Shown: positions 2,256 through 41,817 of the stretch, piece after piece
Layout of the letters: each line of letters begins with the position of its first letter
Numbering within the stretch: the first letter of the stretch is position 1
Origin: Pyrinomonadaceae bacterium
GTDB lineage: Bacteria; Acidobacteriota; Blastocatellia; Pyrinomonadales; Pyrinomonadaceae
Length of the DNA: 43,298 nucleotides
Direction of reading: 5' to 3'
NCBI GenBank assembly: GCA_023717565.1
Contig: JAMQPI010000386.1
Location: 1-43,298 of the forward strand
Position numbers and translations under genes: made by a program
The notes under the pieces: model-generated
Told to the model about the DNA's origin: nothing
What the model saw: the letters and a program-made list of their open reading frames with translations, nothing else
Database searches by the model: none

Positions 2256-2274
2256 CATTTGAGGAGTCAACGTA

Positions 2275-4251: not shown

Positions 4252-4297
4252 GAGCAAGCGGACGAAGAACTATTAGAAGGCTAATACTTAAAACAAG

Positions 4298-5734: not shown

Positions 5735-5737
5735 AGA

Positions 5738-5846
5738 TGGGACGGGGCGAAGGGGAGACACGGAGACGGGGAGACACGGAGACACGGCGAGGCAGAAGTT
5801 TTTCTCCCCGTCCCCCTATCTCCGGTTCTCCCCCTCTCCGTGTCAA
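5738..5846 (+). repeat. GGAGACACGG repeat cluster with inverted copies between sufB and sufC
   Basis: The 137-base gap between sufB and sufC is filled by purine-rich units of the type GGGGAGACACGGAGAC, followed after a short spacer by pyrimidine-rich complements such as TCTCCCCGTCCCCC and CCCCTCTCCGTGTC. The two halves could pair into a long imperfect hairpin inside the suf transcript. The sufC ribosome binding site (AAAGAGGAG, 5854-5862) lies just outside it. Confidence 0.8.
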
Positions 5847-5871
5847 GATTCTTAAAGAGGAGCAATAATAC

Positions 5872-6651
5872 GTGTTAGAAGTTCGCGATTTACATGCAAG
5901 CATTAATGGTAGCCCGATTCTGAAGGGTATCGATCTCACGATCAAGAAGGGTGAGATTCACGCCATCATGGGTCCTAACGGATCCGGAAAATCAACCTTG
6001 GCCAAAGTGCTGGCCGGCCATCCCGCCTACGAAGTAACCAAAGGGCAGGTGCTCTACGAAGGCAAGAACCTTTTGGAGATGGCGCCTGACGAGCGCGCGC
6101 GCGAAGGCGTGTTCATGGCCTTTCAGTATCCGATCGAAGTTCCCGGTGTCTCGAATGCGCAGTTTCTCCGGTTGGCTTACAACGAAAAGCGCAAGCACCT
6201 CGGCGAGGAAGAATTGGATCCGCTGGAGTTCAAAGACTTGCTGAAAGAGCGCGCCAAGATAGTTGAAATGGATGCGAGCTTCATGACCCGGTCGGTAAAC
6301 GAGGGGTTCTCGGGCGGCGAGAAGAAACGAAACGAGATCCTGCAGATGGCTGTGTTGGAGCCGAAGCTGGCGATTCTGGACGAAACCGACTCCGGCCTCG
6401 ATATTGATGCGTTGAGGATTGTTGCGGGGGGCGTCAATCATCTGCACAACTCGGAGAATGCAGTTGTCCTGGTTACTCACTATCAGCGTTTGCTCAACTA
6501 CATCGTGCCGCACTATGTACATGTGCTGGCCGGCGGGCGCATTGCTCGCGAAGGCGGCAAGGAGCTGGCCCTGGAGTTGGAGGAGAAGGGATACGACTGG
6601 ATTACTTCGTCCGTAACGGGAAGTGGGAGCAGCGCGGTGAGCGTAATTTAA
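5872..6651 (+). CDS. sufC: Fe-S assembly ATPase SufC
   Basis: SufC is the ABC-type ATPase that drives conformational change in SufBC2D; it is soluble and not a transporter. In the 259-residue product the Walker A motif GPNGSGKST lies at residues 34-42. The ABC signature is [11 protein letters not shown] and the Walker B region is [12 protein letters not shown] with the family-typical DSGLDIDAL, followed by the switch histidine in LVTHYQRLL. The start is GTG at 5872, placed by AAAGAGGAG ten bases upstream and by the family's LEVRDLHA beginning. It ends 5 bases before sufD. Confidence 0.97.
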
Positions 6652-6656
6652 AGAAG

Positions 6657-8006: not shown

Positions 8007-8584
8007 TTGTTCTGGAGGTTGCCTTGTCAGCTAGAGTCGATCCCATCCTCACAGTCGCCGATCTGGATTTAATGCCAGACGACGATAATCGATACGAGCT
8101 CTTTGAAGGAGAAATATTCGTGTCCCGCGCACCCGGTCTACCTCACCAGACGGTTCTAGCGAATTTGCTGACTCTGATCAGAGTGTTTCTGGCACAAAAT
8201 CCAGCCGGAAAAGTCTGGCCGACACCAGGCGTCATTCTTGACAATTTCAACGCCGCGATACCCGACATAGTGTTTGTGAGCACTGAGCGCCTCGAGGCTA
8301 TAGCATCGGGCGAAAAAGTTACCGGTGCGCCCGATCTAGTCATCGAGGTCGTTTCGCAGGGAGTTGAAAACGAGCGTCGCGATAAGACGGTCAAGCGTCA
8401 GGCTTATAGCAAATTCGGCGTAAATGAGTATTGGGTGGTTGATCGATATCACCAGACAATCGAGGTTTACCGCCTGAAGGAAGGCCAGCTAGTGTTGGTA
8501 ACTACTCTAGCGGACGGTGATCAGCTTACGACGCCGTTGCTGCCGGCGTTCACGTGCTTGATAAGCCAGGTTTTCGAAGGATAA
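8003..8584 (+). CDS. Uma2-family (DUF820) PD-(D/E)XK nuclease-fold protein
   Basis: The 193-residue product matches the Uma2/DUF820 pattern: YELFEGEIFVSRAPGLPHQTV near the start, then PDIVFVSTERLE, PDLVIEVVSQGVENERRDKTVKRQAY and the Tyr/Trp-rich FGVNEYWVVDRYHQTIEVYRL. The Asp and Glu-x-Val residues plus the Lys and Tyr resemble a PD-(D/E)XK nuclease core. These proteins are common in cyanobacteria and soil bacteria and mostly lack known substrates. Its ATG overlaps the sufD stop, which puts it in the suf transcript between sufD and sufS. No Suf-related role is known for the family, so this may be an insertion. Confidence 0.88.
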   Translation: MIVLEVALSARVDPILTVADLDLMPDDDNRYELFEGEIFVSRAPGLPHQTVLANLLTLIRVFLAQNPAGKVWPTPGVILDNFNAAIPDIVFVSTERLEAIASGEKVTGAPDLVIEVVSQGVENERRDKTVKRQAYSKFGVNEYWVVDRYHQTIEVYRLKEGQLVLVTTLADGDQLTTPLLPAFTCLISQVFEG

Positions 8585-8601
8585 ATCTCAATGATCGCTA
8601 A

Positions 8602-9051
8602 ATGCTAAAACGATATCGGGTCTGGCTTTGGACAGCCGTAGTATTTCTGCTCCTCACGGCGCTGATACATGCGTTGACGCTCTTTATTCAGCCAGCGCCG
8701 CAAAATGAAACCGAGCGGCAGCTCTTAAGCTTAATGACCAGTTACAAGCAGGACTTCGGCGGCGGTTTTCAGCGCTCGACGAAAGAACTTGTTACGGCCC
8801 TAAGCGCGTGCTTTTCACTGGTTTGTTTGTTGGGAGGACTCACGCTTGGATTCTTAACGAGAGCAAAGGCGGAGGTTCGCATCCTTAGAGGTGTCGTCGG
8901 CGTACACATCCTGGTCTTTGGAATTTGTCTTGCCGTGATGCTGGCGTTTACTTTCCTGCCGCCGATCGTACTGACAGGATTGATCTTCGTATCTTTGGTA
9001 ATTGCCTTCTTGACTATGCCGAGACAGGAAGCTGAGTCTCCGGTTGCGTAG
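8602..9051 (+). CDS. four-helix integral membrane protein of unknown function
   Basis: I do not recognise this 149-residue protein. It shows a first membrane segment at about residues 8-30 (VWLWTAVVFLLLTALIHALT), an outside or inside loop with polar residues at 31-65, and three more hydrophobic segments near 68-87, 97-117 and 119-139. There are no obvious catalytic motifs. It sits 17 bases after the Uma2-type gene and 61 bases before sufS, so it is carried in the suf cluster. The two genes together may be one insertion into an older sufD-sufS junction. Confidence 0.65.
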   Translation: MLKRYRVWLWTAVVFLLLTALIHALTLFIQPAPQNETERQLLSLMTSYKQDFGGGFQRSTKELVTALSACFSLVCLLGGLTLGFLTRAKAEVRILRGVVGVHILVFGICLAVMLAFTFLPPIVLTGLIFVSLVIAFLTMPRQEAESPVA

Positions 9052-9112
9052 CCAGGTAGTGTCTCAAGTTGAGATCGAGTTTGAGCTCGAGTGAATAGGA
9101 ACTAATTACGAT

Positions 9113-10378
9113 ATGTTAGCCGAAGCGAAATCAGCGGAATCAACACAGGCTCCGGGCACGACCTGGGACGTCGAGCGCATTCGCGCGGATTTCCCAGTGC
9201 TTCATCAAACGGTAAACGGCAAGCCCTTGGTCTACCTGGACAATGCCGCGTCTTCTCAAGTTCCCCAAGTCGTAATCGAACGGGGCAGCATGTATCTGGA
9301 GCAGGAACACTCCAACATCCACCGGGGTGTGCATTATTTGAGCCAGAAAGCGACCACGGCCTACGAGGGCGCGCGCGAGACAGTGAAACGTTTCATCAAC
9401 GCTCGGGAGTCGAAGGAGTGCATCTTTGTCCGCGGCGCGACCGAGGGCATTAACCTGGTGATGCACGGTTACGGCCGCAAGTTCGTCTCCGCAGGGGACG
9501 AAATCATTATCTCTGCCATGGAACACCACGCGAACATCGTCCCCTGGCAGATGCTCTGCGAGGAGAAAGGCGCCAAGCTGCGCGTCATCCCGATGAACGA
9601 TGCCGGTGAGTTGTTGCTGGACGAGTATGAGGGCCTGCTGAACGAAAGAACCAGGCTGGTGGCAGTTAATCACGTGTCAAACGCGCTGGGGACGATCAAT
9701 CCCATCAAAGCGATGATTGAAAGCGCACACAAGTATGGAGTGCCCGTCTTGATTGATGGGGCCCAAGGCGCCCCGCACATAATTGTAGACGTGCAGGACC
9801 TCGACTGCGATTTCTATGCCTTCTCAGGTCACAAGATGTATGCCCCGACGGGAAGCGGAGTGGTTTTCGGCAAGGCCCGTTGGCTCGAGGAAATGAATCC
9901 GTTTCAGGGCGGCGGCGATATGATCAAGAGCGTGACGTTTGAGAAGACGACCCTCGCGGACCTTCCCAACAAGTTTGAGGCGGGCACACCAGCCATTGCT
10001 TCACAGATTGGTCTGGGCGCGGCGATCGACTACCTGAACAGTATCGGCCGCGAGCAAGCAGCCCGGTATGAACACGAGCTATTGCGCTACGCCACCGAGC
10101 GGCTTTCCGGTATCGAAGGTGTTCGGATCATCGGCACCGCGAGGGAAAAGGCCAGCGTGCTTTCTTTCGTGATTGACGAGATCCACCCGCACGACATCGG
10201 CACCATCCTGGATCAGGAGGGAATCGCGGTCAGAGCCGGCCATCATTGCGCGCAGCCGGTGATGCAACGATTCAACGTCCCGGCGACGGCCCGGGCTTCC
10301 TTCGCCTTCTATAACACGAGGCAAGAAGTGGACGTGCTGGCCAGCACGATTGAAAAAGTTATCGAGATATTCAGCTGA
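9113..10378 (+). CDS. sufS: cysteine desulfurase SufS (group II, PLP-dependent)
   Basis: SufS takes sulfur from L-cysteine as an enzyme persulfide and passes it to SufU. The 421-residue protein carries the PLP lysine K241 in FSGHKMYAPTGSGVVFGK and the persulfide cysteine C379 in RAGHHCAQPV, the group II form (RxGHHCA). Other family segments are VYLDNAASSQVP, SNIHRGVHYLSQ and AVNHVSNALGTINPI. The first ~15 residues are variable. A GAATAGGAA stretch upstream may serve as ribosome binding site. sufU follows within 10 bases, the usual pairing for this desulfurase type. Confidence 0.96.
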   Translation: MLAEAKSAESTQAPGTTWDVERIRADFPVLHQTVNGKPLVYLDNAASSQVPQVVIERGSMYLEQEHSNIHRGVHYLSQKATTAYEGARETVKRFINARESKECIFVRGATEGINLVMHGYGRKFVSAGDEIIISAMEHHANIVPWQMLCEEKGAKLRVIPMNDAGELLLDEYEGLLNERTRLVAVNHVSNALGTINPIKAMIESAHKYGVPVLIDGAQGAPHIIVDVQDLDCDFYAFSGHKMYAPTGSGVVFGKARWLEEMNPFQGGGDMIKSVTFEKTTLADLPNKFEAGTPAIASQIGLGAAIDYLNSIGREQAARYEHELLRYATERLSGIEGVRIIGTAREKASVLSFVIDEIHPHDIGTILDQEGIAVRAGHHCAQPVMQRFNVPATARASFAFYNTRQEVDVLASTIEKVIEIFS

Positions 10379-10943: not shown

Positions 10944-13900
10944 CTAAGGGATAGTAACCCGCTTGCTGCTACTAAACGTGCCACCCGTGTACGTCCCGCC
11001 AACGGATAAGGTTGAGCTGGCTCCAGGTGTCGCATTTGTGAAGCTCACAACCGCATTCACAGTCGCCCCGGGAGCAATGTTGCCCAAACTCTGAGGCAGG
11101 GGCGCTCCAACTGTCGAGCCTAGCTTTGCTGTTGTGACTGTTACTTCATTGGCCACTTCGGAGCCGATGTTCTGCACAGTAACAGCGGCTTGCACCGTTG
11201 ACGGATCGCTGCGAGTGACTTGGGAAGTAACTACCAGCCGCACTCCTCCGCACGGAGTAGTACAAACAAACCCGCCGGCTGAATCTACTCCCAGAGTGAA
11301 ACTGTACGTTACGGTTCCCAGATCAATAGCGCCGTCCTGGAGATGTAATGTTGCCGTTATCGTACCCCCGCACGTTCCCGTGGCAGTGAAGGAGAAAGCT
11401 CTCGCTGCATTGTTACCAGGAGCGATTGCTCCGTAACTCTGCGGGCCTGATGGGGCGACCACCCCGCCTGACGATTGCAAGGTCGCCACCAGATTCGAGG
11501 TAGCGGCAGTGCCTGTGTTGGTTAGGCTCAGATTTACAGTTACGCGTTCGCCGGGATCGACGGCGTTGTTAAAGGCCGGACAGCTTTCGTTTACGAGGGT
11601 GGAACCGGCTGTTGCGAACGCGGCGCCCTCGAGACAGTTCTCGACGTTGTCCGGCAGGTTCGAGAAGAAGTCGTAACCGGTCAAGGCCTCAACCTGGTTA
11701 ACCGAGACGATATAGTTTTGCCAGGGGTCATTTCGGATGCCCTGAATGTTTGGCATGATGACGGCGATGACTTGCGTCCCGCAGGTCACGCGGGCAACGT
11801 CATCGCCGCTGGCCTTCGGAAGCACTAGTGCCACTTTCCAGGTTTGCGCTGGAACAGTTACGTTGCCATTAGCGATTGTATTTACGGTACCAGAACCGGC
11901 GCTGCCAATACCTCCTGTCCCGGCGCCACCAGCAACGATGTAGATCTCGTTAGCTGGGAGAAGCGTTCGCAGATGGCCTTCCAGGCTGGCCCATGGTCCC
12001 TGGTTATTGTCCGGCGATTGGGCAAGCATATTCGTCATCAGGAATGTAGCTTGATTGATTGGAATTGAAGTTTCCTTGTCGCGATCGGCATTGGGAACCA
12101 TGTGCCCGCGATCGAACCCGGATCCGGTGTAATCCAAACCTTGCACGCGGTACCAGTCGGGGGGAATTGCGGGATCCGCGCGGAACGTGTCGACACGAGC
12201 CAGAGTACCGATCCATTCGTCGGCCAAATGCCAGCTAACCCAGTTCGGTCCGCCGCGAGACCGATTGTATGAAAGGGTGAACTCGGGTTTCTCCATCAGG
12301 TAGTTGTCTGGCTGGCCAAGGTCAGCAGTCGCGCTATTCGGATTGCCCATCGTTAGATGAACGCTTGAAGGGTAGGGAGGCGCCGTGCCGGTCGCTACCG
12401 TAAAGGTAAAGAGGAAGTCGGCCGGCAGCGTGTCGGCGTTGGTTCCAGTGTCGTCACTATCCACATCGTGAATTGCGTTTTTAAAGATGGTGACGGTGCA
12501 CTGTTCGCCCGGCTGGAAGTTAACGTTGGGCGTAATAACATGAGCGTCACCGCCGAAGAAAGAGGCCTCTGTCGCACTATTATGGAGACCAGTAACGGTG
12601 CAATTAATATTGTACCAACCGGCATCCACCGTGACAGGCTCAGTGAAATTAATGGTTAGGCTCGCATCACGAGGTGCGGATGAAGCGTTATTGCGCGGGT
12701 CGGTGCCAAAGACCGATGGTCCGATCTCGACTATGGGCGCCGTACGTCGCGGGTTGGGTGTGCCCGTAGCAAAGTCAGCTAAATTGTTGTCAGTGTCTCT
12801 AGCTCCGTTGTTATTGCGGAGCAGAGCAGTAGTGTTGCTCGGTGCTGCTGCTCTAGTGCCTTCGGCGCAGTTGGCCGTTCCCCCGTAACCTACAAAATCA
12901 ACGATATCGGGGTCACCGATTGGGCAAGTGCCTACCAAAGGATCGAAGTTGCTGACCAGGGCGATTTTCCCGGTCGTCGCACTCATGTTTATGTCACCCG
13001 AGATGTTCGGGGCGGGAAGATCAGCGCCTGTGGCACCGCCAGCCAGGGCAACCAGGTAGTACTCTCCCGGTGCAATCGTGCCGCCGAGTGGTTGCGTCGT
13101 GAATTCCCAGGTGTCGCCAGCGGCAGAGGTATACTGGAGTGACCAGCCCGTGAGATCGAAAGTTACGTTGTGAGGGTTGTAGAGTTCGACGAAGTCTCGA
13201 TTAAAGGTAGCGCCGCTATTGCCTCCACCGCCATATACCTGACTGATTGTAACGTGATCTGGAACCAGTGGCAGGACACCTAACAGAATATTCGTGTTTG
13301 CCGTACGAGACTGGGCATCGCCAATGGTCACGGGTAATGACTTCATGCCCGGTGGGTTATTCGAGGGCACGTTAGCCACGAAAGTAAAAGTGCTTCCGCT
13401 GCCGCCAAAGGTCTGAGTGGCTGAACCACCAATAGTTGAAAGATCGGCGGTTACTGTAATGCCGGTACTGGTTGGATTCTGACCTGGAGCCACGTGGACC
13501 GTCAGAGTGGTGGACTCTCCCTGCAAAACCGAGCTGGGATTTGCCGAACCGAAGCCGGAAAGAGCTGTACAGTCGTTTGTTGGTGAGGAACTATTACGCG
13601 GATTCGGATCGCCTAAAACGAAATCATGCGCATTATCGTTGGAGTCAAAACAACCGTTGTTCAACCTGAGGTCGGCCACAGTGTTAGAAAGTAGTGGCGC
13701 GGTCCCTGATCCTTCAAAACAATCGGTTGTGCCATAGCCGACGAAATCAACTATTCCGGAGCCGGTCGGGCAGGTCCCAGTCAAAGTCGTTGTGTTGTTT
13801 AGCACTGCCACTTTTCCGGAGGTTGAACTCACTGGAATAGTCCCAATAGCATCGGGCGTTGGCAGATCCTGGGTGCCGCCCGCACCCTGAGATTCTTGCA

Positions 13901-28936: not shown

Positions 28937-30241
28937 CTAAACCGTCGCGAGACCGGCGTCCATTGCAGCTATCATTTCATCCACATGATCCTTCGTGGAG
29001 TTCAACATCAACCCGGTGCGGATTACGTTTCCGTAAAGTCCGCCCTTGCCTATCAACACGCGTTGACGTTTCGTCTCCTCGAAAACTTTGACGACGGCCT
29101 CAGGAGCCGGCTCCTTCGTCTCCCGATCTCTTACCAACTCGACGCCTTGCATTAGTCCCAGGCCACGAACATCACCAATGACCGTGTACTTTTGCTTCAG
29201 TTCTTCCAGTCGCTGTCGCAGATAGGCTCCAACCTCAGCGGCGTTGCGCTTCAGATCCTCCTCTTCGATAACCCGGATTACCGCGAGCGCTGCGGCCATC
29301 GAAACCGGATTGCCGCCGAAAGTCGAAAATGTCAGACCCGGGTACTTGTCCGCCACTTCCGGTGTAGCCACGGTTATACCCAACGGCACTCCATTGCCGA
29401 GACCCTTCGCAGAAGTAATGATGTCCGGCTGGACGTCCCAGTGTTCGATAGCAAACCACTTATCCCCGGTCCGTCCCCAGGCCGTTTGCACTTCGTCTGC
29501 TATGAAGAGCCCGCCGTGTTTGCGCGTAATCTCGACAGCGCGTTCAAAGTAGCCCGGAGGTGGAACAATGAAACCACCCACGCCCAGGATGGGTTCGGCC
29601 ATGAACGCCGCAATCTCGCCGGTGGTTGTCGTCATGATCAACTCTTCGATGTCGTTTGCGCAGGCCAGCCCACATTCCGGATAAGTGAGCTTGAACGGAC
29701 AGCGATAACAGTAAGGCGCGCGCGCATGAACGAAACCGGCAACTTGAGCCGGCAAAGGTCGCCAGGTTGAATGCCCCATTGCCGATAACGCAGTAGCCGA
29801 ACGGCCGCTGTAGCTGTGACGCAGCACGACGATCTCGTGACGACCGGTTGCAGTTTTGGCCGCGTGGATTGCCGTGTCGTCAGCTTCGGTTCCGCTATTC
29901 GTAAAAAACGATTTCTTCAAACGACCGGGCGTGATCTGGTGAAGCTTCTCAGCCAGGTCCGACTACGGTTTGTTAGCGTAAAGCGTGGAAGTGTGTTGCA
30001 GCGTTTTGACTTGATTGATGATTGCTTCACTAACCTTGGGGTTTGCATGGCCCACGCTTACCGTCAACACGCCACCGAAACAATCAAGATACTTGTTACC
30101 CTGGTCGTCCCAAACATGGAACCCCTCACCGCGCACCAGCGCGATCGGTTCCTGGTAGTAGGTGGCTACTGCTGGGAAGAGAAACTCTTTGTGCTTGCGG
30201 ACGGTTTCGGATTGCGTTGTTTTGATCTCAGCGGTACTCAT
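28937..30241 (-). pseudogene. class III aminotransferase interrupted by one in-frame TAG codon
   Basis: Two pieces are in the same frame and together give a full-length PLP aminotransferase of about 434 residues. The N-terminal piece (30241-29963) reads FHVWDDQGNKYLDCFGGVLT and ends LYANKP-TAG. The reading resumes SDLAEKLHQITPGRLKKSFF and continues through NSGTEADDTA, ADEVQTAWGRTG, the PLP lysine in SAKGLGNGVPLG and GNPVSMAAALAV to a normal C-terminus. Relatives usually have Gln after the Pro here, so CAG to TAG is the simplest change. The rest looks intact. The family (AGXT2-like) includes beta-alanine and omega-amino acid transaminases, and the context points to beta-alanine to malonate semialdehyde. 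TAG is an ordinary stop in many neighbours, so routine read-through is unlikely. A sequencing error is possible. GAGGAAACCTC precedes the ATG. Confidence 0.88.
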
Positions 30242-32912: not shown

Positions 32913-34025
32913 ATGACTTATCGTGATGGGGCGAGCGAACAGTGTGGACCGTCCAGCGAGATTAATGTGCTGTGGGTCACCGCCGGACTAGGCTGTGATG
33001 GTGACACTATCGCGATCACAGCTGCTACACAGCCAAGCCTGGAAGAAATTATTCAGGGGGCTATTCCAGGAATTCCCAAAGTAAACTTCCTCAACCCTTT
33101 CCTCTCCTATGAAAACGGTGAGGACTTCATGGAGTTTTTCCATCGAGCGGCTGCGGGAAACCTTGAACCTTTTATTCTGGTTATTGAGGGATCGATACCC
33201 AACGAAAACAACAAAGCCGATGGCTACTGGGCGGCGTTCGGAACCGACAGAGAAACCGGACAGCCGATCACGACATGTGAGTGGATCGATCGGCTTGCTC
33301 CCAGGGCCTGGGCCGTAGTAGCAGCCGGCACCTGCGCCACCTATGGCGGAATTCACGCCATGGAAGGGAACCCCACCGGATGCATGGGCCTTGCGGACTA
33401 CTTAGGCTGGGGTTGGAAATCCACAGCTGGGATACCAATCGTCTGCGTTCCCGGTTGTCCGGTGCTTCCCGACAACTTCATGGAGACACTGCTGTATCTC
33501 CTCTATCAGTCTGCGGGCCGCGCGCCGATGATTCCTCTCGACGATGCTCTGCGGCCAACCTGGCTTTTCAGTCAAACGGTCCATGAAGGCTGTGATCGTG
33601 GCGGCTACTACGAGCAAGCAGAGTTTGCTGAGGAGTATGGGTCGCGTACTTGCATAGTTAAGCTTGGATGCTGGGGACCTGTGGTCCAGTGCAACGTCGG
33701 CAAGCGCGGATGGATTAACGGTATGGGTGGTTGTCCCAACGTCGGTGGAATTTGTATCGGCTGCACGATGCCAGGCTTCCCCGACAAGTTCATGCCTTTT
33801 ATGAATCAACCGCCCGGATCGTTATTGTCGTCAAACGCCGTAATGACCTATGGCAGGGCCATTCATGCGCTGCGAAGATTTACGCAGGCATCCCTGAACA
33901 AGGAGCCAGCATGGCGGCGGCGTTCGGGCTTGCCAAGTAATGCGAGTCATGTGGCAGCCACGAAATCGCCAGCTTCGACAAACACCGATGGATCGGAATT
34001 GGCGGAATTTGAAAAGTCCTTGTGA
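32913..34025 (+). CDS. hhyS: [NiFe] hydrogenase small subunit, group 1h-like, copy 1
   Basis: The small subunit carries the Fe-S relay of an uptake hydrogenase. In this 370-residue copy the proximal-cluster motif is GLGCDGD (C28, D31), which matches the 3-Cys/1-Asp proximal ligation described for the actinobacterial-type (group 1h/5) enzyme. The other ligands are present: AAGTCATYGG, VPGCPV, the distal-cluster HEGCDRGGYYE, then CIVKLGCWGP, GGCPNVGGICIGCTMPGFPDK (given in parts) and its neighbouring cysteines. A normal group 1h small subunit has no twin-arginine signal, and none is seen here. The C-terminus is unlike that of copy 2 (SNASHVAATKSPASTNTDGS). No large-subunit gene follows directly; a kinase does. 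AGAGGAAA precedes the ATG. Confidence 0.93.
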   Translation: MTYRDGASEQCGPSSEINVLWVTAGLGCDGDTIAITAATQPSLEEIIQGAIPGIPKVNFLNPFLSYENGEDFMEFFHRAAAGNLEPFILVIEGSIPNENNKADGYWAAFGTDRETGQPITTCEWIDRLAPRAWAVVAAGTCATYGGIHAMEGNPTGCMGLADYLGWGWKSTAGIPIVCVPGCPVLPDNFMETLLYLLYQSAGRAPMIPLDDALRPTWLFSQTVHEGCDRGGYYEQAEFAEEYGSRTCIVKLGCWGPVVQCNVGKRGWINGMGGCPNVGGICIGCTMPGFPDKFMPFMNQPPGSLLSSNAVMTYGRAIHALRRFTQASLNKEPAWRRRSGLPSNASHVAATKSPASTNTDGSELAEFEKSL

Positions 34026-34043
34026 GCAGCTTTGGTGTGAGCA

Positions 34044-35330
34044 ATGGCAACACACATCTTCGACCTAGCCAGGGTTGATATTCCCAGCGGCGAAACATCT
34101 GCGCCGCAGGACTCAGCTGTTAGTTGGGCGCAGGCCGAAAGCGTACTTCTGGACCTCGCCGCCTCCTTTCCTTTTGGCGATTCACCCCAACGACGAACTA
34201 GGAGTCACCCAGCTGAGGAGGCTAATCCCACCGGAGTTACGTTGCCTGAGGTCGATGCCCGCTACCGGACGTTGGTGGAGCAAATCCCGGCGGTAGTTTT
34301 CATGGCGTTTTTGGATAAAGGCATTGGTGAAGCCTACGTTAGCCCCCAGATAGAGGCGATCCTGGGGTTTTCGCAGGAAGAATGGCTGAATGATCCAGTT
34401 CGTTGGTACCAGCAAATACACCCGGACGACAAAGGTCGCTGGAGTGTTGAAGCGGCCCAGTTGTTTCTGTCGGGTCAACCGTTGAAGTCTCTCTACAGAG
34501 TTCTCGCTCGCGATGGACGAGTAGTTTGGTTTCATTGTGAAGCCAAGATGGTCCGCAACGACGATGGCCAACCCTGGTTTATTCACGGCGTAGCTTTCGA
34601 TATCTCTGATCTCAAGCGCGCAGAAGCATCCGGTCGTGAGTATGCGGATCGTCTAAAGTTTCTCTCAATTCGGTTAATGGAGGTTCAGGAGGCCGAGCGT
34701 CGCAAGATTGCGCTGGAGTTGCACGACGAAATCGGCCAAGTTTTGACTGGACTCAAGCTAAGTCTTGAAATTGGATCGCGTCAACCTGCTCACGAGGTTG
34801 GCGCCAGCCTCGATCAGGCCCGAACGCTGGTTAATGATCTAATGGTGCGAGTTCGGAATCTGTCGCTCGATTTGCGGCCGGCGATGCTGGATGACCTGGG
34901 CTTGCTGCCCACGCTTTTGTGGCACATCGAACACTATACGGCGCAAACGCAGGTGCGAGTTAACTTCAAGCATAGCGGGCTGGAAAAAAGGAGGTTTGCG
35001 CCGGAGGTCGAAACAGCGGCTTATCGCCTGGTGCAGGAGGCGTTAACCAATGTTGCTCGTCATGCTCAAGCGCCCGAGGCGACGGTGCGTCTTTCAACGC
35101 ATCGGCAGACGTTAGTAATAGAGGTTGAGGATCTTGGCCGAGGATTTGATATGGAGTCGGTGCTGATGTCGAGCGAAAACAGTGGTCTGGCGGGGATGCG
35201 TGAGCGGGTGGCTCTGTTGGACGGACAGTTGACCGTTGAGTCAGAGCCGGGCAAAGGCACGCGTTTGACTGCTGAATTGAGCATCGTTGACCAGCCAGCG
35301 TCCACGACGAATTCGGATATCAATGAGTGA
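34044..35330 (+). CDS. soluble PAS-domain sensor histidine kinase (NarL-type HisKA_3)
   Basis: The 428-residue kinase has no membrane segment, so it is cytoplasmic. A variable N-terminus is followed by a PAS fold at about residues 70-190 (YRTLVEQIPAVVFMAFLDKG, PVRWYQQIHPDDKGRW, VAFDISDLKRAE). The HisKA_3 dimerisation helix follows, with phospho-acceptor H227 in ALELHDEIGQVLTGLKLSLE, and the HATPase domain contains VEDLGRGFDME and SGLAGMRERVALLDGQLTVE. It lies 18 bases after the first small-subunit gene and 3 bases before its response regulator. The placement suggests that it senses hydrogenase or redox state, as HoxJ does with the HoxBC sensory hydrogenase in Ralstonia. The input is inferred. 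Confidence 0.92.
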   Translation: MATHIFDLARVDIPSGETSAPQDSAVSWAQAESVLLDLAASFPFGDSPQRRTRSHPAEEANPTGVTLPEVDARYRTLVEQIPAVVFMAFLDKGIGEAYVSPQIEAILGFSQEEWLNDPVRWYQQIHPDDKGRWSVEAAQLFLSGQPLKSLYRVLARDGRVVWFHCEAKMVRNDDGQPWFIHGVAFDISDLKRAEASGREYADRLKFLSIRLMEVQEAERRKIALELHDEIGQVLTGLKLSLEIGSRQPAHEVGASLDQARTLVNDLMVRVRNLSLDLRPAMLDDLGLLPTLLWHIEHYTAQTQVRVNFKHSGLEKRRFAPEVETAAYRLVQEALTNVARHAQAPEATVRLSTHRQTLVIEVEDLGRGFDMESVLMSSENSGLAGMRERVALLDGQLTVESEPGKGTRLTAELSIVDQPASTTNSDINE

Positions 35331-35333
35331 TTC

Positions 35334-36014
35334 ATGATGAGTGACCGAACAACAGAATCGGGCGGAACCACAATCGTACTTGCCGATGATCATCAGGTCG
35401 TTCGCCAGGGCCTCAAGGCACTGCTGGAAGCTGAGCCGGATTTTAGAGTGGTGGGCGAGGCCGGGGATGGAATCCAGGCGATTAAGCGAGTTGAGCTCCT
35501 GAGTCCGCGGGTCCTGGTGCTTGACTTGATGATGCCGGGGCTGAACGGGCTCGACGTGACCCCCCAAATCAAGAAGTGCTCCCCGCATACGCAAGTAGTT
35601 ATTCTCTCGATGTATTCGAACGAGGCTTACGTTCTGGAGGCCCTTGGCAGCGGGGCGTCTGCCTACGTGCTGAAGGATTCGAGTTCGGATGATTTGGTTC
35701 ATGCGGTTCGTGAAGCTGCTGCCGGTCGCCGATACTTAAGTCCTCCGCTATCTGATCGGGCCATCGAGGTTTATCAGCAGAAAGCGAAAGCCACCACGTT
35801 GGACCGTTATGAAACACTTACCTCGCGGGAAAAAGAAGTCCTGCATCTGACCGCTGAAGGCCGGACGAGCGCCGAAATAGCTGGACGTTTGGGGATCAGC
35901 GCCCGTACGGCGGAGACTCACCGTTCCAACCTCATGCACAAACTCGACCTCCACACTCAGGCCGAACTCATACGGTTCGCGCTGCGCCGTGGCATTGTTT
36001 CGATCGACGACTAG
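35334..36014 (+). CDS. NarL/FixJ-family response regulator with LuxR-type DNA-binding domain
   Basis: The 226-residue protein has a receiver domain with acidic pocket LADDHQ (residues 17-20), phospho-acceptor D64 in VLVLDLMMPGLNG, and the conserved Lys in YVLKDSSSDD. The C-terminal LuxR helix-turn-helix reads YETLTSREKEVLHLTAEGRT then AEIAGRLGISARTAETHRSN. It starts 3 bases after the kinase stop, a typical cognate pair. Likely targets are its own operon and the hydrogenase gene 425 bases downstream, where a regulatory gap with repeats lies. Confidence 0.95.
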   Translation: MMSDRTTESGGTTIVLADDHQVVRQGLKALLEAEPDFRVVGEAGDGIQAIKRVELLSPRVLVLDLMMPGLNGLDVTPQIKKCSPHTQVVILSMYSNEAYVLEALGSGASAYVLKDSSSDDLVHAVREAAAGRRYLSPPLSDRAIEVYQQKAKATTLDRYETLTSREKEVLHLTAEGRTSAEIAGRLGISARTAETHRSNLMHKLDLHTQAELIRFALRRGIVSIDD

Positions 36015-36070
36015 TGACGACTAGTAAGGACGACGCCGGAACTTCCGCCGCACAATTCAGAAAGACAAAA

Positions 36071-36098
36071 TACGTAACTTTGCCACACTAAATACGTA
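36071..36098 (+). promoter_or_regulatory. TACGTA direct repeats, candidate response-regulator site
   Basis: AAATACGTA-type words occur at 36071-36076 and 36093-36098, starting 22 bases apart, which is close to two helical turns. A related TACG follows at 36103. They lie directly upstream of the Crp/Fnr-type palindrome and between the response regulator and the second small subunit. Pairs of short words in this spacing are typical for NarL-type regulators. Which protein binds is inferred. Confidence 0.4.
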
Positions 36099-36116
36099 GG
36101 TCTACGAATAGACACC

Positions 36117-36134
36117 ATGTGATCGGGATCACAT
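36117..36134 (+). promoter_or_regulatory. perfect Crp/Fnr-type palindrome before the hydrogenase structural genes
   Basis: ATGTGATC-GG-GATCACAT is a perfect 8+8 dyad containing TGTGA-N6-TCACA, the Crp consensus half-sites. It sits 305 bases before the small-subunit copy 2 ATG. A Crp/Fnr-family protein, sensing cAMP, redox or another signal, would be expected to bind here. No regulator of this family is in the window. No convincing -10 box is seen at the ideal distance (a weak TAAACA at 36149). The rest of 36015-36438 holds the TACGTA repeats and no gene. Confidence 0.6.
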
Positions 36135-36438
36135 AATTGTTACCTCCCTAAACAAAGTGGAGTGCCGCTTTCGCTGGTACCCCGCTTAGGTACGGACTGG
36201 ATTTGCGTGCCGGTTGCCGGAATCTACGTCGTTCATTAATCGGATTAGTAATTCCCATTCCCTTCGTCGACGTGAGCCGTAAGCCGGCGCCCGCATAGAT
36301 AGACAGACAAGGTTTCGGGGGACACGGGACCTGTTACAAAGGGGCTCTCCTGCCGCGACTCAGGTGGTAATTCGAATCGCGACCGCTGCCTTCAGCCCCA
36401 CCGTTGTCAATTGCAAAATGAGAAAGGAGATGAAACCC

Positions 36439-37524
36439 ATGGCGGCAGAAACTGCCCCGTATGGTCGAATCACGCAGCGGCCACCGGCGGTCAAGGATGT
36501 TCACATAGTCTGGATTACGGCGGGACTGGGTTGTGACGGCGATTCGGTTTCGATCACTGCTGCGACTCAACCGAGTGTCGAAGACGTGGTGCTGGGGGCA
36601 ATTCCAGGCCTTCCGAGAGTGCACTTACATAACCCTGTACTTGCGTACGAAGTCGGCGACGAGTTCATGAAATATTTCTATCAGGCCGAACAGGGTCTGA
36701 TCGATCCATTTGTCCTGGTTGTCGAGGGCTCTATCCCGAACGAGAACCTGAGTGGCGAAGGCTACTGGGCGGCGATGGGTCAGGACGCCATGACCGGCCA
36801 ACCGATCACTACCAACGAGTGGATCGATCGTTTGGCCCCCAAAGCACTGGCGGTCGTAGCAATCGGAACGTGCGCCACCTACGGCGGAATTCACGCCATG
36901 GAGGGTAACCCAACTGGCTGCATGGGCCTGGCTGACTATCTTGGTTGGGACTGGAAATCGTCGGCAGGCATCCCGATCGTTAACGTGCCCGGGTGCCCGG
37001 TTCAGCCGGACAATTTTATGGAAACAGTGTTGTATTTGCTCTACCTGGCGGCGGGTCTGGCCCCGATGATTCCTCTCGACGATGCCGGGCGTCCCACTTG
37101 GCTCTTCGGCAAGACGGTGCACGAAGGATGCGACCGAGGCAGCTATTACGAGCAGGGAGACTTTGCCACCGAGTATGGCTCTCCCAAGTGCATCGTGAAG
37201 CTGGGTTGTTGGGGACCGGTCGTGAACTGCAACGTTCCGAAGCGCGGTTGGATGGCCGGCATCGGTGGTTGCCCAAACGTTGGCGGCATCTGCATCGGTT
37301 GCACAATGCCCGGCTTCCCGGACAAGTTCATGCCTTTCATGGATGAGCCGCCGGGCGCCAAAATCTCGGCATCAGCCATTGGCATATACGGCGCAGCCAT
37401 TCGCCAACTGCGTAGTTTGACTAACGCCACCGTGAATAAGGAACCGAAGTGGCGGCACAATCGTCCCGAACTGACCACTGGTTATCGGCCGCAAGCTATC
37501 CAGCGAAAGGAGCGAGCCTCATGA
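36439..37524 (+). CDS. hhyS: [NiFe] hydrogenase small subunit, group 1h-like, copy 2 (paired with the large subunit)
   Basis: The 361-residue protein is closely similar to copy 1 over its whole core. The proximal motif is again GCDGD (C32, D35), with AIGTCATYGG, VPGCPVQPDN, HEGCDRGSYYE, CIVKLGCWGPVVNCN and GGICIGCTMPGF. It overlaps the large-subunit gene by four bases (ATGA), so it is the natural structural partner. A longer reading from GTG at 36364 exists, but AAAGGAG at 36423-36429 stands 9 bases before the ATG at 36439, which decides the start. The product forms the electron relay of a high-affinity, oxygen-tolerant type H2-oxidising enzyme. The C-terminal ~30 residues are basic and hydrophilic. 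Confidence 0.96.
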   Translation: MAAETAPYGRITQRPPAVKDVHIVWITAGLGCDGDSVSITAATQPSVEDVVLGAIPGLPRVHLHNPVLAYEVGDEFMKYFYQAEQGLIDPFVLVVEGSIPNENLSGEGYWAAMGQDAMTGQPITTNEWIDRLAPKALAVVAIGTCATYGGIHAMEGNPTGCMGLADYLGWDWKSSAGIPIVNVPGCPVQPDNFMETVLYLLYLAAGLAPMIPLDDAGRPTWLFGKTVHEGCDRGSYYEQGDFATEYGSPKCIVKLGCWGPVVNCNVPKRGWMAGIGGCPNVGGICIGCTMPGFPDKFMPFMDEPPGAKISASAIGIYGAAIRQLRSLTNATVNKEPKWRHNRPELTTGYRPQAIQRKERAS

Positions 37525-39326
37525 GTAGTACAACCACGACAGTTACTAAGAAGCCAACCAAGCCGCGGACTTTGGTGGATATGAATTGGGATCCGATCAC
37601 GCGCATTGTGGGAAGTTTGGGTATCTACACCAAAATTGATTTTGCCAATCGCGAGGTGGCGGAGTGTTACTCGACCTCTTCAATCTTTCGCGGCTACAGC
37701 ATTTTCATGAAGGGCAAGGATCCGCGTGACGCGCACTTCATAACGAGCCGGATCTGCGGAATTTGCGGGGACAACCACGCCACCTGCGCCACCTACGCGC
37801 AGAACATGGCCTTTGGCGTAAGACCGCCGGCGATGGCCGAGTGGATAGTTAACCTCGGCGAGGCGGCCGAGTATATGTTCGATCACAACATCTTCCAGGA
37901 CAATCTGGTCGGCGTAGATTTTTGCGAACAGATGGTTAAGGAAACGAACCCTGGCGTTTGGGAAAAGGCCAAGACGACTCCAGCGCCGCACGCCGCCGAC
38001 CATGGCTTCCGAACCATAGCGGACATCATGACGGCCCTGAATCCTTTCAGCGGTGAGTTTTACCGCGAGACTTTGCATGTCAGCCGCTACACGCGGGAAA
38101 TGTTTTGCTTGATGGAAGGCCGCCACGTCCATCCTTCAACTCTCTATCCGGGAGGCGTGGGCACGGTGCCAACAATTCAACTCTTCACTGATTACCTGGT
38201 CAGGCTCATGCGCTATTGTGAGTTTATGAAGAAGGTAGTGCCGCTTCATGACGATCTTTTCGACTTCATTTACGAAGCCTTACCCGGATACGAGAAGGTT
38301 GGTCAGCGACGCATCCTTTTGGGGTGCTGGGGATCGTTCAATGATCCGAACGTGTGCGACTACACCTACAAGAACATGGACGAGTGGGGCAACTCGATGT
38401 TTGTTACCCCGGGCGTGGTGGTTGATGGAAAATTGGTGACCACCAATCTTGTCGACATCAACCTCGGCATTCGCATCTTGCTCGGTAGTTCGTACTACGA
38501 CGACTGGGACCAGTCTGAAACTTTTGTGAAGACCGATCCGCTCGGCAATCCCGTCGATCGTCAACATCCCTGGAATCAGACCACCATCCCACGGCCGCAG
38601 AAACGTGACTTCGAAAACAACTACACCTGGGTCATGTCACCGCGCTGGTACCACAAGGACGAACCGGGCGACAAGAAATACCTGGCGCTCGACACGGGCG
38701 GTGGCCCCATCGCACGTTTTTGGGCGACGGCGCTCGCAGGCAAGGTTGACATTGGCTACATTAAGGCAACGGGCCACAGTGTAAAGATATATCTGCCAAA
38801 AACAGCCATGAAGCCCGAGGTTGAGTTCGAGTGGAAGATTCCCAAGTGGAGCAACGCTATCGAGCGCGATCGTGCGCGCACCTACTTCCAGGCCTACGCG
38901 GCCGCCGCAGCTCTCCACTTCGCGGAGCAGGCACTCGCTGAGCTGCACGCCGGACGAACCAAGACCTGGTCGGAGTTCAAGGTTCCCAGCGAAGCCATCG
39001 GCTGCGGTTTCCACGAGGCAGTGCGTGGCGTGCTCTCGCACCACGTAGTGATTCGCGATGGCAAGATCGCCAATTACCATCCCTATCCGCCTACACCCTG
39101 GAACGCGAACCCGCGGGACATTTATGGGACTCCCGGTCCCTATGAGGATGCGGTGCAAAATACACCTATCTTCGAAGAGAATGGACCCGAGAATTTCAAG
39201 GGCATCGACATCATGCGCGCGGTACGCAGCTTCGATCCCTGTCTGCCGTGCGGCGTTCACATGTATTTGGGTAATGGAAAAGTGCTGGAAACTCATCATT
39301 CGCCAATGTTTGGAATGGTGAAATAA
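37521..39326 (+). CDS. hhyL: [NiFe] hydrogenase large subunit, group 1h-like
   Basis: This is the catalytic subunit holding the NiFe(CN)2CO site. In the 601-residue protein the L1 ligands are C79 and C82 in RICGICGDNHATCATYAQN, and the L2 ligands are C574 and C577 in DPCLPCGVHMY. A 21-residue tail after H580 would be removed by a maturation protease; no protease or hyp gene lies in the window, so they must be beyond its right edge or elsewhere. Further segments: WDPITRIVGSLGIYTKIDF, ILLGCWGSFNDPNVCDY, YNP-free core with VKIYLPKTAM. The ATG at 37521 overlaps the small-subunit stop and follows AAAGGAGCG. The earlier in-frame start at 37449 lies inside the small-subunit gene and is not used. The length and the overlap with copy 2 identify the working pair. 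Confidence 0.97.
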   Translation: MSSTTTTVTKKPTKPRTLVDMNWDPITRIVGSLGIYTKIDFANREVAECYSTSSIFRGYSIFMKGKDPRDAHFITSRICGICGDNHATCATYAQNMAFGVRPPAMAEWIVNLGEAAEYMFDHNIFQDNLVGVDFCEQMVKETNPGVWEKAKTTPAPHAADHGFRTIADIMTALNPFSGEFYRETLHVSRYTREMFCLMEGRHVHPSTLYPGGVGTVPTIQLFTDYLVRLMRYCEFMKKVVPLHDDLFDFIYEALPGYEKVGQRRILLGCWGSFNDPNVCDYTYKNMDEWGNSMFVTPGVVVDGKLVTTNLVDINLGIRILLGSSYYDDWDQSETFVKTDPLGNPVDRQHPWNQTTIPRPQKRDFENNYTWVMSPRWYHKDEPGDKKYLALDTGGGPIARFWATALAGKVDIGYIKATGHSVKIYLPKTAMKPEVEFEWKIPKWSNAIERDRARTYFQAYAAAAALHFAEQALAELHAGRTKTWSEFKVPSEAIGCGFHEAVRGVLSHHVVIRDGKIANYHPYPPTPWNANPRDIYGTPGPYEDAVQNTPIFEENGPENFKGIDIMRAVRSFDPCLPCGVHMYLGNGKVLETHHSPMFGMVK

Positions 39327-39498: not shown

Positions 39499-40383
39499 TT
39501 GCCGCAATCGATGGAACAAATCGAAGGGCTGGTCCGCAAGATCGAAAACCTGTCTGACGATGAGGCGCGGGCCAGCGCCCTGGCGCTGGTGCAGGCATTG
39601 ATGGAGTTTCACGGGGCCGGGATCGAACGGATGATGGAGATCGTTGCTGAGTCTCGGGAGGCAGGCGATGCGATCTTTGATCGTTTTGGTGCTGACGATC
39701 TGGTAGGGAGTTTGCTCCTGCTCTACGGACAGCATCCTCTCACCCTTGAGACTCGGGTAACGCAGGCTCTCGACAAGGTGAGGCCTTATCTCGACTCGCA
39801 TGGTGGCAATGTAGAGTTGCTCGGAATTACCGACGGAGTTGTGCAGCTGCGAATGCAAGGGAGTTGCAAGAGTTGTCCTTCATCTTCAATGACGCTCAAG
39901 CTTGCTATTGAAGAAGCGATTTACGCTGCTGCTCCCGACGTCGTGGGGATAGAAGCTGAGGGTGTAACCGAACAAACTTCCGCGACAGGCTTTGTGCAAA
40001 TACACAGGTCGGTGGACAACGGAAACGGCAGCGCGGGGCGCGCTCAGAACGGTAACAGTGTGAATTCGAGCGGCAATGGCTGGGAAGAGGTGCGCGACCT
40101 TTCTGCGCTAGGCAACAGTGCGGTCCAGCTCCTTGAAGTGAGCGGCCGCTCGATCCTTTTCTGTCGCTTGGGGGAGTCGTTCTACGCCTACGGCAACAAC
40201 TGCCCCGGGTGTGGCAGCGCTTTGCAGGGCGCGCATCTTGAAGTGACGAATCTCGTCTGTCCCCAATGCGGACAGCAATACGATGTGATTCGCGCAGGGC
40301 GCGGGTTGGATCAACCGGACCTGCATCTCGAGCCGTTCCCTTTGTTGTTCGAGCAAGGTCGGGCCAAGGTAGCGTTGCCCTAA
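39499..40383 (+). CDS. NifU C-terminal domain fused to a four-cysteine Rieske-like/zinc-ribbon tail; hydrogenase electron-transfer partner candidate
   Basis: A helical region at residues 1-80 is followed by a NifU/Nfu domain at about 82-155 with the cluster cysteines C123 and C126 in GSCKSCPSSSMTLKLAIEEA. After a Gly/Asn/Ser linker (NGNGSAGRAQNGN), residues 195-294 have a Rieske-type outline, but the ligands read CPGCG (C235, C238) and CPQCG (C254, C257) instead of the Cys-His pairs. The site could hold a rubredoxin-type iron, zinc or an all-cysteine cluster. Similar NifU/Rieske-type proteins follow group 1h hydrogenases in actinobacteria (HhyE) and are thought to pass electrons onward. The TTG start at 39499 is chosen because GAAGGGAGAG stands 5 bases upstream. 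Confidence 0.82.
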   Translation: MPQSMEQIEGLVRKIENLSDDEARASALALVQALMEFHGAGIERMMEIVAESREAGDAIFDRFGADDLVGSLLLLYGQHPLTLETRVTQALDKVRPYLDSHGGNVELLGITDGVVQLRMQGSCKSCPSSSMTLKLAIEEAIYAAAPDVVGIEAEGVTEQTSATGFVQIHRSVDNGNGSAGRAQNGNSVNSSGNGWEEVRDLSALGNSAVQLLEVSGRSILFCRLGESFYAYGNNCPGCGSALQGAHLEVTNLVCPQCGQQYDVIRAGRGLDQPDLHLEPFPLLFEQGRAKVALP

Positions 40384-40459
40384 AAGAATTTCGGATTTCG
40401 GATTTAGCTCGACGGCAGAGTGTTGGTTCTATCGACCATCCGTGAGGACGGAAATCAAG

Positions 40460-41125
40460 ATGGCGAACATATCCGAACAGGACGGGTCTGCAAATCGAAA
40501 TCCGCAATCCGCAATCCGCAATTCCGACACGCCCTTTGCCGTGTTACGACGATTCGTGCGCCAGCGAACCGTTGTCGAACGTTGTGAGATGTGCAGTGCG
40601 GAGTTAGCGACAGATCACGAGCATCTGGTTGAACCCGCCACTCGCAAATTGGTTTGTGCCTGCCAGGCGTGTGCCATTCTCTTTAGCGGCAAAGCCAGCG
40701 CCAAGTACCGTCGTGTGCCGAGGCGCCTACGTCGCCTTCCGAATTTTCAATTGACGGATGCCCAATGGGATAGCCTGCTGATCCCGATCAGCATGGCCTT
40801 CTTTTTTCGTTGCAGTGTGACTGGGAAAGTAACGGTCCTCTATCCGAGCCCGGCTGGAGCTACCGAGTCACTCCTCGACTTCGAATCCTGGAATGAAATC
40901 CTGCACGAGAATCCGGTGTTACAGGAGATGGAGGCCGATACTGAAGCTCTGTTAGTTAACCGAGTACGCGGGGCCTCCGAGTATTACCTGTTGCCGATTG
41001 ACGAGTGTTACAAGCTGGTTGGACTCATTCGCACGCATTGGCACGGATTGTCCGGCGGCACACAGATGTGGGAAGCAATCGGTAAGTTTTTCGCGGAGTT
41101 GAAAGAAAGGGCAACTGATAACTGA
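40460..41125 (+). CDS. DUF5947-like hydrogenase accessory protein with zinc-ribbon cysteines
   Basis: The ~221-residue protein has a CxxC pair in CEMCSAELATDHEHLV and a second in CACQACAILF, likely one metal site at about residues 35-75. The conserved C-terminal body reads WDSLLIPISMAFFF, VTVLYPSPAGATESLL and RGASEYYLLPIDECYKLVGL. Proteins of this type accompany group 1h hydrogenases and have no known biochemical role. ATG at 40460 is preferred over GTG at 40442, because GAGGACGG lies before it. A repeat-derived piece (RNPQSAIRNS) has entered the N-terminal tail. It overlaps the next gene by one base. Confidence 0.8.
   Translation: MANISEQDGSANRNPQSAIRNSDTPFAVLRRFVRQRTVVERCEMCSAELATDHEHLVEPATRKLVCACQACAILFSGKASAKYRRVPRRLRRLPNFQLTDAQWDSLLIPISMAFFFRCSVTGKVTVLYPSPAGATESLLDFESWNEILHENPVLQEMEADTEALLVNRVRGASEYYLLPIDECYKLVGLIRTHWHGLSGGTQMWEAIGKFFAELKERATDN
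40492..40526 (+). repeat. short repeat inserted in the N-terminus of the DUF5947-like gene
   Basis: AAATCGAAATCCGCAATCCG plus two more CAATCCG-type units lie inside the coding sequence and read in frame as NRNPQSAIRNS. The same units occur between genes elsewhere in the window (for example 21951-21976). Confidence 0.75.
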
Positions 41126-41817
41126 TGCCTGATCTGAGTTTTCAAATTGAAGGTGCCGAGGCAGTTCCTTATTCGGCGGCGCCATTGCTGGCGTTCAAGC
41201 TGCGCCTCTCGAACGTGGACGCCGGAGAACTTATCCAATCGGTCGCATTGCGTTGCCAGATCCAGATCGAAGTGACGCACCGCAAGTACGAAGCTCGCGA
41301 ACAGGAGGGCCTGCTTGATCTCTTCGGAGCTCCGGAGCGTTGGAGTCGAACGCTGCGCTCGATGTTGTGGACACATGCGAACGTCATGGTGCCGCCGTTC
41401 AAGGAAAGTATCGTGGTCGATCTCCAGGTCCCGTGTACCTTCGACTTCAATGTGGCGGCTACCAAATATTTCGCCGCTCTGGCAGAAGGCGATGTTCCAC
41501 TCAACCTGATGTTCAGTGGGACAGTCTTTTACGAATCTGACGGCGCCGGCTTGCAAGTTCAGCAGATCCCGTGGGACCGCGAGGCTAAGTATCGGCTGCC
41601 GGTAATCGTTTGGCAGGAGATGATGGAACTGTATTACCCGAACAGCGCGTGGTTGTGTCTCCAAAGAGACGTTTTTGAGAAGTTGTCCCAGTACAAGATG
41701 GCGCGCGGGATACCCACCTGGGAACAAGCATTGGAGAGCCTTATTCCTGCTGCTGAGGAACCTGCGCACCACGCGGGCGACGAAGAAATTGCCATCGAGG
41801 GAAGTGTGCCATCTTGA
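41125..41817 (+). CDS. DUF6084-like hydrogenase accessory protein
   Basis: The 230-residue protein has the segments FKLRLSNVDAGELIQSVALR, CQIQIEVTHRKYEAREQEGL, APERWSRTLRSMLWTHANVM and VPCTFDFNVAATKYFAALAEG, a beta-rich body without cysteine motifs or membrane segments. Its genomic position after DUF5947 in a hydrogenase operon matches the usual pairing of these two families. The role is unknown; structural support or maturation of the hydrogenase complex is a guess. It overlaps both neighbours (TGATG and TTGA), so translation is coupled. Confidence 0.8.
   Translation: MPDLSFQIEGAEAVPYSAAPLLAFKLRLSNVDAGELIQSVALRCQIQIEVTHRKYEAREQEGLLDLFGAPERWSRTLRSMLWTHANVMVPPFKESIVVDLQVPCTFDFNVAATKYFAALAEGDVPLNLMFSGTVFYESDGAGLQVQQIPWDREAKYRLPVIVWQEMMELYYPNSAWLCLQRDVFEKLSQYKMARGIPTWEQALESLIPAAEEPAHHAGDEEIAIEGSVPS

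Follow-up and report, generated by a model that had tools for sequence, protein, structure and literature searches.

In a 43,298-nucleotide stretch of DNA from a Pyrinomonadaceae bacterium (contig JAMQPI010000386.1 of assembly GCA_023717565.1, Acidobacteriota), referred to here as the window, two genes for the small subunit of a group 1h [NiFe]-hydrogenase, S1 and S2, enclose the genes of a PAS-domain histidine kinase and a NarL-type response regulator. From sequence comparison, S1, probably together with the large subunit L encoded after S2, is proposed to be the sensory subunit for the PAS kinase controlling the S2-L operon, a reading to which we give a probability of about 0.6. A step further, and somewhat short of an even chance in our judgement, the choice of small subunit would turn the enzyme into a receptor for the PAS kinase, with a single L serving both respiration and H2 sensing. 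The near-constant adjacency of S1 and the PAS module in many soil bacteria that use trace H2 suggests a built-in sensor for hydrogenase production.

The gene order that a first-pass annotation had read from the letters of the window (small subunit, PAS kinase, NarL-type regulator, gap, and a second small subunit overlapping L) is real, with all genes on the + strand, and its interpretation was partly supported by the analysis below. The features concerned are the following:

32913-34025, + strand: S1, paralogous small subunit of the group 1h hydrogenase type with a proposed sensory role (370 amino acids)
34044-35330, + strand: soluble histidine kinase in which the PAS module linked to S1 precedes a HisKA_3/HATPase core (428 amino acids; PAS_3, HisKA_3, HATPase_c)
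34263-34613, + strand: PAS core, kinase residues ~74-190, conserved beside S1
35334-36014, + strand: NarL/LuxR-type response regulator, type A (226 amino acids; Response_reg and GerE)
36071-36108: putative regulatory repeat, with TACGTA at 36071 and 36093 (spacing 22 bases) and TACGAA at 36103; predicted regulator sites
36439-37524, + strand: S2, the HhyS small subunit encoded in the structural operon (361 amino acids counted from ATG)
37521-39326, + strand: L, [NiFe] large subunit (HhyL) with both CxxC motifs (601 amino acids)

The start of S2 was taken as the ATG behind GAAAGGAG, the listed open reading frame (ORF) beginning upstream with a GTG at 36364; S2 and L overlap by 4 bases.

The S1 lineage and its PAS neighbour

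S1 and S2 share 72% identity over 322 residues. The best solved relative of S1 was HofK of 5aa5 (E 8e-173) and that of L was HofG of the same structure; therefore, the enzyme belongs to group 1h (actinobacterial-type). As expected of a group 1h small subunit, S1 has HofK as its nearest solved relative and keeps the cluster-binding Cys and His residues. In the window S2 has a large subunit of its own alongside and S1 has none. When the genome (89% complete) was searched with PF00374, only the L of the window (one gene, in two pieces) and one sub-cut-off match on another contig were recovered, so the annotated lack of a large subunit belonging to S1 holds. With S1 as the query, S1 and S2 were the only small subunits found in this genome.

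To place S1 among its relatives, small subunits were collected with S1 from genome contigs (the best 80 of 85 loci) and from 297 surveyed genomes of the phylum, 19 of which had some small subunit at threshold. In a tree of 114 rows, the window S1 and 44 others formed one clade with a support of 99 in the Shimodaira-Hasegawa-like approximate likelihood ratio test (SH-aLRT), the only support measure used in the trees, and the window S2, the Actinomycetota sequences and all the remaining rows fell outside it. After rebuilding with 101 rows, including HofK and a Methylocystis protein, 42/42 S1 rows again lay on one side of a branch, with support 99. This second tree was built without the long rows L120, L077, L067 and L060 (all S1) and L107, without L108, L109 and L111, and without eight actinobacterial rows; the small-subunit piece of G221 was too short for either tree. 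A recent tandem duplication producing S1 is excluded by its clade in both trees. The check proposed in the first-pass annotation, whether S1 is a recent lineage-specific duplicate that lacks a conserved kinase neighbour, was thus run and came out on the side of its interpretation: S1 proved to be one multi-locus clade with a conserved PAS neighbour. Judged by these trees, S1 is old, not a recent duplicate.

Conservation was compared between 46 S1 proteins (the 45 of the first tree plus L053, some of them close kin, such as L062 and L080) and 69 other small subunits, a set that excludes five duplicate rows, the outgroup L126, the broken rows L076 and L047 and short pieces. The conserved Cys/His columns were kept in 46/46 S1, except one column kept in 45/46, which bears out, for these columns, the statement that copy 1 retains its Fe-S ligand motifs; the assignment of individual S1 residues to individual clusters is our assumption. 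Of 166 positions with at least 95% invariance among the other small subunits, S1 retained 127, and only seven were lost in more than half of the S1 proteins. It also has residues of its own, namely W133 (46/46), C122 (42/46, against 9/69 elsewhere), Q259, G263, S303, Q325 and S327. The C-terminal tail, counted from the GFPD motif, is uneven in S1 (48-83 residues) compared with 62-66 residues in most S2. Over 19 loci the mean distances were 0.26 for S1, 0.19 for S2 and 0.14 for L, so S1 evolves somewhat faster.

Further surveys with S1 as the query gave a match in 1/294 genomes for the phylum of the L064 genome, namely that genome itself, and in 3/288 for the phylum of the L055 genome, two of these at 67-68% identity only and outside any tree; S1 is therefore rare in both. 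L049, L054, L055, L064, L068, L070 and L079 carry the phylum labels of their records, which may be incorrect, and since L049 and L055 group with acidobacterial S1 in the tree, they may reflect transfer or mis-binning. For the window itself, the nearest relatives in the tree point to an acidobacterial origin.

A PAS core was found at most 1 kb downstream of S1 on the same strand in 45/46 cases, whereas none of the 69 other small subunits had one within 5 kb downstream. In the exception, L070, genes for L and a NifU-like protein intervene and the PAS core is 2.9 kb away. Since the loci were found by the S1 query alone, the PAS neighbour was not selected for. Identity to the PAS core of the window was 59-85% in 44 of the 45 other loci and 47% in L054, with L052 aligned partially, and many residues of the core are nearly invariant. 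Among the 297 genomes of the phylum, scored on at most 12 candidates per genome, PAS matches of more than 200 bits occurred in exactly the nine that have a tree-placed S1, the next highest score being 113 bits. Of the five genomes with an S2-like copy only, G094, G163, G196 and G217 gave no PAS match at threshold, and G221 gave one at 47% identity. The two genes stay joined even in G321, where 2.7 Mb of the same contig separates S1 from S2 and S1 is nevertheless followed by the PAS ORF (L056).

The output part of the PAS protein is less constant. Among 20 such proteins picked for diversity besides that of the window, HisKA_3 was present in ten, HisKA in seven (L033, which also has a receiver, L049, L054, L056, L064, L066 and one of the two in L067) and HisKA_2 in one (L068). 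The remaining two, L055 and L070, had no kinase domain in the given frame, the ATPase part of L055 being in the next ORF. In two cases among the 20, L113 and the second PAS protein of L067, the gene does not adjoin S1. Conservation of a sensor module alongside a variable output points to a partner on the input side, and the constant neighbour is S1. A mirror-tree analysis of 19 loci gave an S1-PAS partial correlation of 0.40 given S2 and L (permutation p 0.0005), and 0.11 for S2-PAS given S1 and L; for reasons given below, little weight was put on it.

Two loci or genomes were seen to carry more than one such kinase. In L067, two differing PAS-module kinases (HisKA_3 and HisKA) lie near one S1, at 1907-3271 (+ strand) and 4083-6272 (- strand). 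In G075, S1 stands with a PAS protein made of HisKA and a receiver (L033/L112) on a separate contig from L113, which carries another PAS kinase, a type A regulator, S2 and L at 3868-9563; one S1 may here serve two kinases.

The kinase of the window has no membrane-like stretch (highest 19-residue Kyte-Doolittle mean 1.25), in support of its earlier description as soluble. An H-box, ELHDE, is found at residue 225, and the regulator has the motif DLMMP at 64; the HisKA_3 kinase with its H-box and the Response_reg plus GerE regulator make this a two-component system of the NarL/FixJ type. The predicted fold of the kinase (mean predicted local distance difference test score, pLDDT, 74) matched PDB entries including chimeric LOV kinases and DesK, and neither fold nor matches pointed to a particular cofactor, if any, of the PAS domain.

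Regulator-matched elements in the gap before S2

The gap between the regulator gene and S2 was compared in 29 loci, some of them close kin, to which four more were added later. The regulators of these loci fall into two types, A with at least 65% identity to that of the window and B with 30-35%, and no locus is intermediate; this split was defined after the motif was seen. Expected counts were taken from shuffles that were first-order Markov and not exact.

TACGTA was present in 7/7 type A gaps (15 copies), compared with 0.5 loci expected. A pair of TACGTA spaced 21-24 bases was found in 5/7 of them, with none expected, and in 6/7 the hexamer was followed by TACGAATAGAC or TGCGAATAGAC. Type B gaps instead had GGGAWTCCC (GGGAATCCC or GGGATTCCC) in 12/22, with 0.1 expected, and TACGTA in 1/22, while GGGAWTCCC was present in 0/7 type A gaps. 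The four additional gaps, all of type B, had GGGAWTCCC in 3/4 and TACGTA in 0/4, which brings GGGAWTCCC to 15/26.

In 18 control stretches TACGTA was not found (0/18). GGGAWTCCC was present in four of them (L036, L053, L069 and L214), the other 14 having neither element; the loci of L036, L053 and L214 hold a regulator ~31-40% identical, and L069 breaks off just upstream. Across the whole assembly of the window (6.9 Mb), the TACGTA pair occurs once, at this gap. Each regulator type thus tends to have its own element before S2, the pattern expected of a regulator dedicated to the S2-L operon. From this pattern, the TACGTA repeat likely represents the binding sites of the regulator. Of the earlier idea that the state of the hydrogenase controls hydrogenase expression, the part concerning control of the operon is therefore backed by a cis-element matched to the regulator.

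Further elements were noted in these gaps. In type B loci such as L048 (~11357-11700), an element like ATCRGGGAATCCCYGAT precedes S2, followed in some loci by AAAAATAGT, a 9-mer common to 6/29 gaps; the ATCRGGGAATCCCYGAT-like element is a probable site of the second regulator type. CAAGCGGG or its complement is common to 14/29 gaps (L046, L048 and others) and is a possible leader element. In the window, a perfect CRP-like palindrome, TGTGATCGGGATCACA (36118-36133), sits between the TACGTA repeats and S2. It was rejected as a conserved element, exact TGTGA-N6-TCACA being found in the window gap only (1/29). A search for an RNA element in the gap gave one weak Rfam match, on the opposite strand and at 18 bits against a cut-off of 39, which was taken as chance.

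S1, the large subunit and competing explanations

A large-subunit match was found in 41/41 S1 genomes searched. It was at least 72% identical, and so counted as group 1h-like, in 40/41, and was the single match in 27. The exception, G326, had a match of only 39% and a contig cut inside S2; in several other genomes, pieces were found at contig ends. Apart from a second L in G303, extra matches were pieces or more distant kin.

In four cases S1 was the only small subunit found with L. L049 has the order S1-kinase-L-single receiver with unrelated genes around, L055 has S1-kinase-L, in which the frames of kinase and L are broken, followed by two ORFs without an assignment and by a maturation protease, and L070 has S1-L-NifU-PAS protein. 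In G063 (99% complete), S1, kinase and regulator are on one contig and L on another, S1 being the only small-subunit match; this L has no S2 upstream, and its neighbours are an OmpR-type two-component pair and a transporter. Both CxxC motifs are kept in the L of L049, L070 and G063. Three further genomes with one small-subunit match each (G306, G329 and G332) were ascribed to contig ends and left uncounted. Together, the gene contents of L049, L055, L070 and G063 suggest that S1 can pair with L. The first-pass annotation had let S1 act either alone or by sharing L, and it is the sharing that these four cases favour.

A catalytic subunit would also be expected to appear as the sole small subunit with L. 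S1 could accordingly be an alternative catalytic small subunit, used with L for another acceptor or growth condition, while the two-component system regulates both forms and its PAS domain senses an unrelated signal. The conserved Cys/His columns and most invariant positions, which S1 keeps, fit such a role. This explanation leaves open, however, why the constant element beside S1 is the PAS module and no particular kinase or regulator, why S1 and PAS co-occur across genomes and why they stay joined where S2-L is elsewhere; the C-terminal tail, uneven in S1 and even in S2, also speaks against it. We regard it as unlikely, if still a serious contender.

That S1 works without L, sensing redox state or O2 through its clusters while docked on the PAS domain, appears improbable. 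Most loci encode no L directly beside S1, and S1 has conserved residues particular to it, such as W133 and C122, but a group 1h-like L is present in nearly all S1 genomes and lies inside the S1-kinase cassette in some loci. Moreover, the invariant positions of the N-terminal half of S1, which we take to face the large subunit, are mostly kept (66/92). A redundant isoform kept by chance or dosage, with no distinct role, would agree with the 72% identity to S2 and with a transcript undetected in one of two strains (PMC8027828, in the passages concerned), but it is very improbable given the invariant residues of the S1 clade and its conserved partner across many loci.

The preferred explanation remains S1 as a dedicated signalling small subunit that would bind the adjacent PAS module and, most probably, also the L shared with S2. 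We favour association with L over S1 alone, since almost every S1 genome has an L and some loci place it within the cassette. In complex with L, S1 would signal H2 turnover, and by itself it could signal the redox state of its iron-sulphur chain. Either signal would be read by the PAS domain, which would in turn adjust the histidine kinase attached to it. Phosphorylation of the NarL-type regulator by this kinase would follow, such phosphotransfer being the established chemistry of the HisKA_3 and NarL-type families. The regulator, to which the element before S2 is matched, would presumably bind this repeat and control the S2-L-HhyE operon. One L would thus act in respiration when paired with S2 and in sensing when paired with S1.

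Several observations weigh against this explanation. The conserved adjacency of S1 and PAS could mean joint transfer and co-regulation alone, and no S1-PAS gene fusion was found in the loci searched. In G075, the second PAS kinase and its regulator stand beside S2-L with no S1 alongside (L113), so the PAS module is not always with S1. Little weight was given to the mirror-tree because its PAS-L partial correlation (0.43) was as high as that of S1-PAS and the permutation leaves relatedness in. The strict GGGAWTCCC is missing from 11/26 type B gaps. G303 carries two group 1h-like L genes. S1 is the sole small subunit in only four cases; three come from metagenome-derived records, and L055 has a stop within its L frame. 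As for expression, passages of PMC8027828 report that the transcript of the hhyS homolog was detected in Acidobacteriaceae KBS 83 and undetected in Edaphobacter aggregans, and the published data concern growth phase and carbon limitation.

Comparison with group 1h and sensory hydrogenases

Downstream of L, the window carries the following genes, with one further protein encoded after the last of them on the + strand:

39499-40383, + strand: NifU-like and Rieske-like protein in the HhyE position (listed ORF start TTG)
40442-41125, + strand: DUF5947 protein, also in the C. necator group 1h operon (listed ORF start GTG)
41125-41817, + strand: DUF6084 protein, also in the C. necator group 1h operon

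Elsewhere in the window, a class III aminotransferase-like gene, named without a family search (28937-30241, - strand), is split by an in-frame TAG at ~29963, past which the same frame continues; this is either a sequencing error or a true stop.

S1, S2 and L belong to the same lineage as the group 1h [NiFe]-hydrogenase (HhySL; HofKG of 5aa5). The genes after L in the group 1h locus of Cupriavidus necator match those of the window, but that locus, like the one of Methylocystis, encodes a single small subunit, next to which neither a kinase nor a regulator is annotated. An additional hhyS has been described ~3,600 bp upstream in two strains, 'as observed in P. methylaliphatogenes', its carriers being Acidobacteriaceae KBS 83, Edaphobacter aggregans and Pyrinomonas, according to passages of PMC8027828. 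Therefore, the earlier claim that the arrangement was undescribed was too strong. KBS 83 corresponds to L046 and Pyrinomonas K22 to L080, both with the order S1-PAS kinase-regulator-S2-L, and the extra hhyS of KBS 83 and Pyrinomonas is taken to be S1. The terms 'two-component', 'histidine kinase' and 'regulat' have 0 occurrences in the main text of PMC8027828, and 'two-component' is absent from that of PMC5900883, which treats loci of several strains. No account of the S1-PAS kinase pairing was found among the open-licence matches listed; the extra hhyS was already known.

A sensor candidate, an output regulator and a likely DNA target can thus be named for many acidobacterial loci, including the two from the cultured strains KBS 83 and Pyrinomonas K22. 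For the group 1h enzyme of Pyrinomonas, HydDB predicts a role in persistence via aerobic respiration of atmospheric H2 (PMC5037454, in the part concerned). In Mycobacterium smegmatis, the group 1h Hhy is under two-component redox- and oxygen-sensing control by DosST/DosR, and in the passages of PMC13098282 no hydrogenase subunit is named as part of this sensor, unlike what is proposed here for S1.

The model closest in logic, by analogy, is HoxBC-HoxJ-HoxA (group 2b) of C. necator pHG1, which likewise joins hydrogenase subunits to a PAS histidine kinase and a regulator of hydrogenase genes (passages of PMC10073562). The likeness drawn in the first-pass annotation stands as an analogy of logic and fails as kinship. 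HoxB is only 32% identical to S1, compared with 72% between S1 and S2, which rules out S1 as a member of the HoxB lineage, and HoxB adjoins its own large subunit, whereas S1 is mostly without one. HoxJ combines PAS with HisKA and gave no significant BLASTP match to the window kinase, which is of the HisKA_3 type; HoxA is a sigma-54 activator, whereas the window regulator is NarL-type. The names HoxA, HoxB, HoxC and HoxJ are our presumed assignments on the pHG1 record, which gives products. Of the marks of group 2b, the S1 system has the linked soluble PAS kinase and regulator and has neither the HoxB/HoxC lineage nor a HoxJ-family kinase. Therefore, it lies outside the HoxBC-HoxJ family.

The sensory classes given by HydDB are group 2b and, as putative ones, group 2c and [FeFe] group C (PMC5037454, in the part concerned). 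If L is shared, the S1 system would illustrate a simple route from enzyme to receptor, in which an electron-transfer subunit is duplicated and coupled to a kinase. If the proposal is true, it would represent a separate origin of hydrogenase-linked signalling, invisible to classifications based on the large subunit only.

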